From: Leisingera sp. ANG-M7
Lineage (GTDB): Bacteria; Pseudomonadota; Alphaproteobacteria; Rhodobacterales; Rhodobacteraceae
Length of the DNA stretch: 64,000 bases
Assembly (NCBI RefSeq): GCF_000813965.1
Contig: NZ_JWLI01000007.1
Span: 124,001 to 188,000 of the forward strand
Direction of reading: 5' to 3'
A model generated the notes under the pieces. That model did no database searches. It had not been told where the DNA came from and saw nothing but the letters and a program-made list of their open reading frames with translations. A program made the translations under genes and the position numbers. Below, in pieces: positions 8,337-15,237 of the stretch (its first letter is position 1; each line of letters starts with the position of its first letter).

Positions 8337-8416
8337 GCGCGACGCAATCTTTGATTGCACCAGAGCGGGCGGGAGCAATCCCGTTCAGGCTGAATTATGC
8401 GGAGGGGGGGGTAAGT

Positions 8417-8511
8417 GAGAGGCTGGACATCGACCCAAGCGGGGCTCGTTGTGGCTGCTTCCTTCCGGACCTGACCAGGTTGGCGAGGCGCCTGCCCGCG
8501 CCAACCTCTCG
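8417..8511 (-). ncRNA. ffs: Signal recognition particle RNA (4.5S RNA)
   Basis: Read on the minus strand, the region contains ggtcaggtccggaaggaagc, the universally conserved SRP RNA domain IV that binds Ffh. The ends pair (gagaggttgg with ccagcctctc, one G-U pair), giving a single hairpin of about 95 nt, the usual size of the short bacterial type. The RNA forms the SRP with Ffh and directs co-translational membrane targeting. The exact ends are estimated from the pairing. Confidence 0.95.
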
Positions 8512-13267: not shown

Positions 13268-13876
13268 ATGACTGACGTGACGACACCCCAGCCCGACCCG
13301 GACAGCCCCATCCCGACCCGCGAGCGGCTGCTGCGGGCGGCGGCCGGCCTGTTCCGCAACAAGGGCTACAGCGGCACCGGCCTGGCCGAACTGCTGGCCG
13401 CGGCGGAGGCGCCCAAAGGATCGCTCTACCATCATTTCCCGAACGGTAAATCCGATCTGGCGCTGGCTGCGGCGGATTGGGCGTCGGAGCAGATGCGGCA
13501 GGTGATTGCAGTGTCTTTTGACCCCGCCCCCAGTTTTCAGGAAGGTGCCAAAACCGTCTGCTACAAACTGGCCAAGCTGTTCGACCTGCAAGGGAAATGG
13601 AGCGGCTGCCCGGTTTCGGCCACGCTGTTCGAGGGGCCGGAGAATGAGGCCTTTCACCAGCACGCCGCCAAGCTTTTCGAGGGCTGGATCACGGAGACCG
13701 CACAGCACGCCGAGCGCCTGGGGCTGCCCAGGGATGAGGCCCGCGCAGCGGCGGAAAATTTCTATATCCTGCTGCAGGGCGGCTGGCAGCTGGCGCGGGT
13801 GCGGCGGGACTCGGACGTGATCCGAGGACTGCACCTGCAGCTGCGCGCACCTGTGCAGACGCAGAAAAACATTTGA
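13268..13876 (+). CDS. TetR/AcrR family transcriptional regulator
   Basis: A 202-residue repressor. The N-terminal helix-turn-helix spans about residues 18-64 (RERLLRAAAGLFRNKGYSGT through APKGSLYHHFPNGKSDL), with the family KGSLYHHF recognition helix. The C-terminal ligand domain includes SGCPVSATLFEGPENEAF, which resembles the LmrA/YxaF-type C-terminal domain. It probably autoregulates and represses the divergent alpha/beta hydrolase through the sites at 13208-13248. The inducer is unknown. Confidence 0.88.
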   Translation: MTDVTTPQPDPDSPIPTRERLLRAAAGLFRNKGYSGTGLAELLAAAEAPKGSLYHHFPNGKSDLALAAADWASEQMRQVIAVSFDPAPSFQEGAKTVCYKLAKLFDLQGKWSGCPVSATLFEGPENEAFHQHAAKLFEGWITETAQHAERLGLPRDEARAAAENFYILLQGGWQLARVRRDSDVIRGLHLQLRAPVQTQKNI

Positions 13877-13902
13877 CGACTCAGGGATCCAGCCGCTACC
13901 GC

Positions 13903-14105
13903 TTGTGTTGATGGTTCCCGTGCCACAGAATCTTGTGTCCGGGATGAAAAGGGAACACGGTGCGGCCTCGCCCAGCGCAAGGCCAATTCCGCGACTGCCC
14001 CCGCAACTGTAAGCGGCGAGCGACCCCGATAGAGCCACTGGCCCGAATGGGCCGGGAAGGATCGGGAAAGCTGCGACCCGCAAGTCAGGAGACCTGCCAT
14101 CGGAT
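13903..14105 (+). ncRNA. Cobalamin (adenosylcobalamin) riboswitch
   Basis: The conserved elements occur in order: ggttcccgtgcc, gggatgaaaagggaacacgg (13941-13960), the cgactgcccccgcaactgta core (13992-14011), agagccactg (14031-14040), gggaagg, then cgcaagtcaggagacctgcc (14079-14098). This matches the cobalamin riboswitch consensus, including the B12 box. It reads toward the gene at 14224 on the same strand. The 118 nt between aptamer and start codon probably hold the expression platform. Expression of the downstream gene should fall when B12 is abundant. Confidence 0.95.
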
Positions 14106-14223
14106 ATGAAACTCGAACCCGGGCGGGGTGTCCGGACAGGGTCTGATGGCACCGCGGGCTTTCCGCTTTCTCATCCGGTCTCTTGTCCCCAAGACCCCCG
14201 CACCACGCGCGGAGGGCGCAAAC

Positions 14224-14628
14224 ATGATGTGGACGGACAAGACGCATTTCTATGCGGCAACGGATTGCAAATACCTCGGGAAACCTTGCCCGGCAGCAGA
14301 GCGGATGATCGCCAAGCTGGCTGAGGCGATGACCAAGGCCAAGCCGCTGACCCAGGAGGATTTCGAAATCACCGGCACCAGCAAGCTGGACGGCTGCCCG
14401 CGCAACTGCCCGGCGCAGTTCGTGGCCAGCCACGACCGGATCCGGCTGTTCTGCGGTGTCGGGGAAGAGGCCCCGCGTGACGGGCTGGACCGGTTTGCCG
14501 ATGCGATTCTCAGCCGCGACGGCACCGGCTTTGCGGCCTCCAAACTGGACGCCCGCCCCTGTGCGCTGATGGAGGCGCTGCCGAAAACGGCAGAGGCACG
14601 TCAGGCGGAGCAGATGCTGGCGCTTTAA
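14224..14628 (+). CDS. Small cysteine-motif protein under B12 riboswitch (DUF1636-like, possible [2Fe-2S] thioredoxin-fold)
   Basis: A 134-residue cytoplasmic protein. The cysteines are Cys15-x6-Cys22 near the N-terminus and Cys58-x3-Cys62 in GCPRNCPAQF, with another at 77. CX5-12C followed by CX3C is the ligand spacing of thioredoxin-like [2Fe-2S] ferredoxins, and the G-C-x3-C ... L-F-C-G-V segment resembles DUF1636. The family identity is my recognition from pattern, not a search. It is the only gene between the riboswitch and a convergent gene, so it must be what B12 regulates. A GGAGG site precedes the ATG; the adjacent ATG at 14227 is equally possible. A role in cobalt or corrin handling is an inference. 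Confidence 0.65.
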   Translation: MMWTDKTHFYAATDCKYLGKPCPAAERMIAKLAEAMTKAKPLTQEDFEITGTSKLDGCPRNCPAQFVASHDRIRLFCGVGEEAPRDGLDRFADAILSRDGTGFAASKLDARPCALMEALPKTAEARQAEQMLAL

Positions 14629-14682: not shown

Positions 14683-15237
14683 TTATTGCGGCCGCAGCCC
14701 TGCCGGACGCCCCGCGTAGGCCCATTCCAGCTGCGCCTGCGTTTCCACAGCGCAAGGGCGCACAGTGCGCAGCCTTGCCAGCGCCTGTGCGGAGTCTTCG
14801 CCGCTTTCGATCATCAGCCGCAGCACCGCCATGCCGGAGCGGCCGCAGCCGCCCTTGCAATGGACCAGCACCCGGCCGCCGCCCTCCAGCGCCATCCGCG
14901 CCGAGGCGCTTGCCTTGGGCCATTTCGCCGCCACCTGCCGCGACGGCACGTCGAAATCCGGCACCGGCAGATGGATCCAACGGCTGGCCATGCTCTGGAT
15001 ATCGCAGCCGAGCCGGTGGCTGCCGGCCGCCGCGTGTTCGTCTGCCGTGGTCATGGAGATCACCAGTCCGGGCTTCCAGGCGTTGATCCGGCCCATGTCG
15101 CCAGCATAGTCGCCGCCCTTGCCCGGCAAGGGGCACAGCGCCAGCCTCCCGCCCGCGACGGGCACCTCGTATATGGAAATATTCACTGCCACAGGCATCT
15201 CCTGCGCCGCAGTCCCAGAGACTTCGTCAGATCGCAT
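14683..15237 (-). CDS. Protein tyrosine / dual-specificity phosphatase-like protein
   Basis: A 184-residue protein with the Cys-phosphatase P-loop HCKGGCGRSG (H-C-x5-R-S/T) near residue 132. A probable general-acid aspartate lies in LPVPDFDVP about 30 residues earlier. The length and single domain match small bacterial dual-specificity or cyclin-phosphatase-like enzymes. The start at 15237 is preceded by GGAGG; a second ATG about 13 residues in (MPVAVNISIYEV) is possible. The substrate is unknown. It converges on the B12-regulated gene and is divergent from dnaX. Confidence 0.8.
   Translation of the reverse strand: MRSDEVSGTAAQEMPVAVNISIYEVPVAGGRLALCPLPGKGGDYAGDMGRINAWKPGLVISMTTADEHAAAGSHRLGCDIQSMASRWIHLPVPDFDVPSRQVAAKWPKASASARMALEGGGRVLVHCKGGCGRSGMAVLRLMIESGEDSAQALARLRTVRPCAVETQAQLEWAYAGRPAGLRPQ

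Follow-up and report, generated by a model that had tools for sequence, protein, structure and literature searches.

A cobalamin riboswitch precedes a lone gene for a divergent DUF1636-type protein in Leisingera

Why should a complete cobalamin (B12) riboswitch precede one small gene rather than an operon in Leisingera sp. ANG-M7? We addressed this question in the window, i.e., the whole stretch of 64,000 nucleotides that was analyzed (contig NZ_JWLI01000007.1, positions 124,001 to 188,000), and by comparison with related loci and genomes. The answer proposed below is that the gene encodes a divergent branch of the DUF1636 family that probably aids the cell in acquiring usable B12 under scarcity of the vitamin.

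The riboswitch, its leader, and the conservation of the riboswitch-gene pair

The aptamer matched RF00174 with an E value of 2e-33 over model positions 1 to 189 of 189, without truncation (gathering score, 31.5). It is the same full aptamer as that of the riboswitches of B12 uptake and synthesis operons, except that it is followed by a lone gene. The convergent gene downstream and the TetR-family gene upstream leave a single gene under the riboswitch (Table 1), and nothing ties the TetR-family gene to the riboswitch unit. The RF00174 match and the layout of the open reading frames thus bear out a sequence-only reading of this DNA, which had described a full B12 riboswitch followed by a lone 134-residue gene and then by a convergent gene. 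The end of the aptamer and the start of the gene are separated by 108 bases, and a second in-frame ATG is present at position 14227.

Table 1. Features of the locus and cobalamin riboswitches of the same genome
Feature	Position in the window	Strand	Remarks
TetR-family regulator gene	13268..13876	+	Upstream neighbor
Cobalamin (B12) riboswitch aptamer	13895..14115	+	RF00174, 133.6 bits
CCCCGC in conserved aptamer loop	13999..14004	+	Proposed kissing-loop partner; putative pairing, from reading of the sequence
GGCGGGGTG element (L13-like), 3' of aptamer	14122..14130	+	Pattern upstream of gene in 40/44 loci examined
Hairpin GCGC-GGAGG-GCGC	14207..14219	+	Shine-Dalgarno GGAGG in loop; four pairs in 35/44 loci
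134-aa protein gene	14224..14628	+	ATG at 14224, stop at 14626-14628; divergent DUF1636 branch
DSP/tyrosine-phosphatase-like gene	14683..15237	-	Convergent; bounds the unit
Own-genome riboswitch 1			Precedes lone gene
Own-genome riboswitch 2			Precedes canonical DUF1636, P-loop GTPase frame (cobW-like by motif), cobN, cobG
Own-genome riboswitch 3			Precedes CbtB/CbtA
Own-genome riboswitch 4			Precedes binding-protein/permease/ATPase set
Own-genome riboswitch 5			Precedes GbcA/GbcB-like genes

Two elements lie between the aptamer and the gene. The GCGGGG stretch within GGCGGGGTG is the exact complement of the CCCCGC loop motif, an interaction proposed to be of the kissing-loop type described for E. 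coli btuB. The Shine-Dalgarno hairpin was compared among 44 loci, about 13 of which are close relatives of the window, and two of its four pairs displayed changes on both sides. In the 39 loci with GGAGG, G-C forms the first pair in 32 cases and U-A in 4; at the second pair, C-G occurs in 33 cases and U-A in 3. The hairpin was not found 3' of own-genome riboswitches 2 to 5 (Table 1). The RNA fold of positions 14090 to 14250 was no more stable than that of shuffled sequences (z = -0.48), and a promoter scan found none.

The lone gene was present in 21 of the 21 genus genomes searched. The total for that search was 22 of 61 genomes, the 22nd match (G033; 34%) lying within an unrelated frame of much greater length; we counted it as chance. 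Twenty relative loci were found in Leisingera, Phaeobacter, Tritonibacter, and Roseobacter records, and a profile of 19 rows retrieved relatives in 32 of 394 family genomes. A riboswitch was located just upstream in all 10 of the record loci given to cmscan and in 19 of 20 further loci, the exception (L105) coming from genome G084, whose copy has no riboswitch and sits on a long branch. By genome coordinates, the riboswitch lies 75 to 152 nt from the match in 30 of the 32 relatives, and a weaker one in G429 (51.6 bits by cmscan) brings the total to 31. The pair recurs in relatives at 24 to 29% identity; its conservation goes beyond chance.

The gene is close to dnaX in the window, in 20 of the 20 record loci, and in 9 of 28 other regions. 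Thus, much of the lone branch occupies one conserved place, and the gene lies elsewhere in the remaining regions. A record titled Nocardioides marinus (L074; JAHVJD010000004.1) also contains dnaX and the riboswitch gene; this is probably a mislabeled assembly, since the locus is of the Leisingera type. The window additionally encodes a bacterial small SRP RNA (RF00169, 55.5 bits; positions 8413 to 8511, minus strand), and several relatives likewise have this RNA in the vicinity of the lone gene.

Descent of the protein and its cysteines

The sequence-only reading had suggested a comparison with DUF1636 (PF07845). The window protein produced no Pfam or NCBIfam match at an E value of 10, PF07845 included (cut-off, 31.6 bits), and no significant PDB match. 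The lone-branch rows overall scored 14 to 24 bits on PF07845 (14 to 16 bits for L077, L095, and L097; none for L109), for which reason we speak of a divergent branch rather than of a Pfam member. The connection to the family runs through intermediates that contain six cysteines. All six intermediates scanned pass the PF07845 cut-off with 42 to 107 bits (e.g., L098 to L101 and L103), and the genus alignment matched the intermediates over residues 10 to 96 (hhalign, 98.1%; E = 1e-13). Compared directly to canonical DUF1636, the genus alignment gave a weak match (13%; E = 0.002). The 98.9% obtained with a mixed alignment does not test the lone branch independently, since intermediates are among the rows of that alignment. 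On these alignments, we regard the window protein as a homolog of DUF1636 through the intermediates, so that the DUF1636 lead held for descent, although the Pfam model itself does not recognize the protein. We consider an identity derived from DUF1636, together with riboswitch control as a feature of the sequence, to be highly probable.

A DUF1636 protein of known structure (PDB 9jn8, designated ORF378) matches the canonical DUF1636 protein of the same genome (E = 4e-30) and the six-cysteine intermediates (E = 4e-9) but has no sequence match to the window protein (0.23 with the mixed profile). A literature search on ORF378 found no paper on 9jn8. We also considered a sulfite/nitrite-reductase reading of the motif GCPRNC, which is reminiscent of siroheme enzymes. 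This reading was dropped on layout rather than on profile comparison, as the protein grades into DUF1636 intermediates of quite different layout.

The cysteines of the window protein follow the pattern C15-x6-C22-x35-C58-x3-C62. The two pairs are as first described from the sequence, and all four residues are conserved without exception in the 30 rows aligned. Every row was collected through its similarity to the family, a selection that favors conserved cysteines. Of the 32 family hits, 27 are included in this alignment, those left out being G383 and G336 (the same proteins as L070 and L079), G341, G162, and G326. Cys77 and Cys113 are also present in the window protein and are not kept in all relatives. 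In a larger alignment of 54 rows, Cys15, Cys22, Cys58, and Cys62 are present in every one of the 21 lone-branch rows; 16 of these rows contain Cys77, 3 contain Cys12, and Cys54 is absent throughout. Among the 21 rows of canonical DUF1636, many of which are nearly identical, Cys54 and Cys58 are constant, Cys62 is present in 15, and no row contains Cys22; Cys12 and Cys15 are found in 19, the other two rows being cut at the start. All six positions (12, 15, 22, 54, 58, and 62) are cysteines in nine rows.

The window protein thus has the same size as DUF1636 proteins and shares Cys15 and Cys58 with them. It does not have their canonical set (C-x2-C and C-x3-C at 12, 15, 54, and 58), since positions 12 and 54 are occupied by Ala and Lys, and it differs further in having kept Cys22 and in being encoded by a lone gene that has a riboswitch to itself and, at the ribosome site, a distinctive hairpin. 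Because the intermediates hold both sets of cysteines, the presumed ligands probably moved from one set to the other. The tree is unrooted and therefore does not show the direction of this move. It comprises 46 rows, 8 near-duplicate or cut canonical rows having been left out, and places the 21 lone rows on one side of a weakly supported branch (75/60). Twenty of these rows group together with support of 98/93, and L109, whose branch is long, falls in an open fork beyond this group; long branches are seen for three rows of the tree.

Thioredoxin-like [2Fe-2S] ferredoxins (PF01257; NuoE and the Aquifex ferredoxin) display a C-x(n)-C pair followed by C-x3-C, the first pair ranging from C-x4-C, as in NuoE, to C-x12-C. 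The window protein contains this four-cysteine pattern, in keeping with the ferredoxin-type spacing claimed from the sequence. The correspondence of the individual residues did not hold, however, since the second pair of the ferredoxins and of DUF1636 aligns to positions 54 and 58 rather than 58 and 62 (for the ferredoxins, at non-significant profile scores). The window protein had no Pfam match to PF01257 at an E value of 10, and profile comparisons with NuoE-type ferredoxins were not significant (0.2% by hhalign for PF01257, 18%, and 0.8%). An AlphaFold model built from 19 sequences (pLDDT, 82.1; pTM, 0.76) has the order E-H-E-E-E-H-E-H, which up to the first two-thirds is that of thioredoxin-like ferredoxins. 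Foldseek and VIA-align comparisons of this model gave no thioredoxin-like fold among the matches listed. Two other proteins, L056 and L058, match PF01257 and PF07845 over one region (L056 above the PF01257 cut-off and both weakly on PF07845), which hints that DUF1636 and the thioredoxin-like ferredoxins are akin.

DUF1636 has been placed with the thioredoxin-like [2Fe-2S] ferredoxins, an extra cysteine possibly replacing a missing ligand (PMC4520260). It is listed under electron transport in a second source (PMC12828279). The literature searched contained two papers that mention DUF1636, no paper joining DUF1636 and cobalamin, and no prior account of the lone gene.

Genes that accompany the relatives and the other riboswitches

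The genome of the window contains at least five cobalamin riboswitches (150 of 401 candidates scored; Table 1). The idea that the riboswitch-gene pair might occur beside cob genes was confirmed for canonical DUF1636, which heads a cob operon behind riboswitch 2. More generally, at least 13 of 91 other DUF1636 family hits are preceded by a B12 riboswitch. Riboswitch 5 lies outside the window (G000:C45:67889-68086), and its genes (L113:7086-9516) matched the glycine betaine monooxygenase components GbcA (520 bits) and GbcB (366 bits), both under the cut-off. B12-sparing demethylation may be directly controlled by B12 at these GbcA/GbcB-like genes.

Importer genes accompany part of the relatives. 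Nine of the 32 (in G149, G162, G286, G290, G326, G341, G347, G415, and G425) are the first gene of a riboswitch-preceded operon for an ABC ATPase, a binding protein, and a permease, the last being usually but not always visible, and the other 23 are not in an operon with an importer. As far as seen, eight of the nine operon-head proteins are of the six-cysteine type, and in that of G162 only the lone-branch set of four is present. Similar operons are headed by seven further riboswitch-preceded DUF1636 genes (in G078, G079, G097, G119, G244, G272, and G383) and by three plasmid genes from Sinorhizobium, Ruegeria, and Gemmobacter, all located after a riboswitch; these further heads span two DUF1636 subfamilies. 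At resolved junctions, the importer gene usually starts in the stop codon region of the head gene with a 4-nt overlap. Pfam and NCBIfam searches of one full trio (L114) and of the binding proteins of L123, L129, and L145, the other trios being read by eye, identified FecCD, Peripla_BP_2, and ABC_tran domains. The best NCBIfam names were mixed (F420-0, siderophore, and BtuC) and under the cut-off, so that any substrate is only putative.

Looser arrangements were also observed. A binding-protein-like gene starts 3 nt after the lone-type gene of G393, and that of G135 is followed by another riboswitch and a binding-protein gene. In G425, a MetH-like frame, identified by eye, lies behind the riboswitch-DUF1636-importer operon (L128, 8321 to 9358). 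Genes for a zinc-type ABC transporter or a COG0523-type GTPase are found near lone-type or six-cysteine genes at L116 (G230), L129 (G393), and L185 (Gemmobacter plasmid), which may point to a tie between zinc and B12 economy.

What the protein may do

Judged from sequence and genomic setting, the protein probably helps cells to obtain usable B12 under scarcity. We tentatively propose, at slightly less than even chances, that it is a small, probably Fe-S, redox protein descended from DUF1636, repressed by B12, and serving B12 acquisition; a redox function directed at corrinoids is somewhat more tentative. When cobalamin is plentiful, the riboswitch would fold onto the leader and hide the Shine-Dalgarno hairpin, thereby stopping translation, and the protein would be made when B12 is scarce. 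With less certainty, the four cysteines could hold a [2Fe-2S] cluster from which electrons would pass to the cobalt of a corrinoid, taking Co(III) to Co(II) or Co(I) and thereby allowing corrinoid from import or from new synthesis to be adenosylated and used. The intracellular reduction of cobalt in corrinoids scavenged by bacteria is only partly known. RamA and DUF1638 are reductive recharging proteins in roseobacters, according to PMC12478193. We do not propose the window protein as a partner of either, because they are expected to be needed in the presence of B12, the condition under which the window protein would be repressed.

The sequence-only reading had offered cobalt insertion as a possible role. 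The gene is associated with cobN: a cobN match exceeded the cut-off in 30 of the 32 genomes that carry the gene and in 32 of 48 that do not (Fisher P = 0.0055, not a true probability because the genomes are related; the 48 were the next in order rather than a random draw). Two genomes, G084 and G197, nevertheless keep the gene while lacking a cobN match above the cut-off; each has just two corrin-type (TP) methylases, compared to 6 to 11 in the genomes of the other 30 relatives. G197 has also kept a riboswitch in front of the lone gene (125.9 bits) and has a second one before a set of genes, read by eye, for a TonB receptor, a binding protein, and a permease. These two genomes, the only basis for this point, argue against a role confined to corrin synthesis, and cobalt insertion as the sole role is therefore unlikely. 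Dependence of the gene on CobG was rejected, as the gene does not track CobG. The CobG search matched 75 of 80 genomes and was non-discriminating because the hits were mostly of two kinds, cob-locus and sulfite-reductase-like, and several relatives (e.g., G149, G238, and G415) had no cob-locus hit.

The same two genomes weigh against a related possibility, namely, that the four thiols serve as ligands of Co(II) or Zn(II) and, at low B12, deliver the metal to a CobW-type GTPase or to the cobaltochelatase. In the genome of the window, canonical DUF1636 is followed by a P-loop GTPase frame and by cobN, and the zinc-type and COG0523-type genes mentioned above, whose names were assigned by eye or by record, are close to the lone-type genes of G230 and G393 and to the Gemmobacter gene. 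These neighborhoods favor a metal carrier, whereas the ABC operons, of the FecCD/Peripla_BP_2 kind, are not of a known cobalt type; on balance, we consider a carrier improbable. A function without redox chemistry, as a zinc-finger-like or thiol sensor or regulator or as an importer accessory with structural cysteines, appears to be about as improbable. It would agree with the predicted model, which gave no thioredoxin-like fold among the matches listed, and the 4-nt overlaps, suggestive of translational coupling with the importer ATPase, would fit an accessory, but the lone branch has no adjoining importer partner, and the homology to DUF1636, tied to [2Fe-2S] ferredoxins in PMC4520260, speaks against it. 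Less probable still is a redox partner for a B12-sparing route, in which an enzyme replaces its B12-dependent counterpart at low B12. A single gene under B12 repression fits such a partner, and the riboswitch before the GbcA/GbcB-like genes suggests that B12-sparing control exists in this genome; the relatives, however, belong to importer and cob operons and are not neighbors of genes for alternative enzymes.

A redox protein in the service of B12 acquisition thus remains our preferred reading. Its extension to the whole family is doubtful: DUF1636-type proteins would serve generally as a B12-repressed redox module that renders corrinoids usable, whether imported or newly synthesized, and would head importer and cob operons, and the window protein would belong to a branch that left the operon, kept the riboswitch, and moved its ligands from positions 12, 15, 54, and 58 to positions 15, 22, 58, and 62 by way of the six-cysteine intermediates. 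These intermediates offer a traceable case of a change of metal ligands within a protein family. For the uncharacterized DUF1636 family, a small protein apparently repressed by B12, encoded both at the head of operons and as a lone gene, would provide a testable physiological setting.
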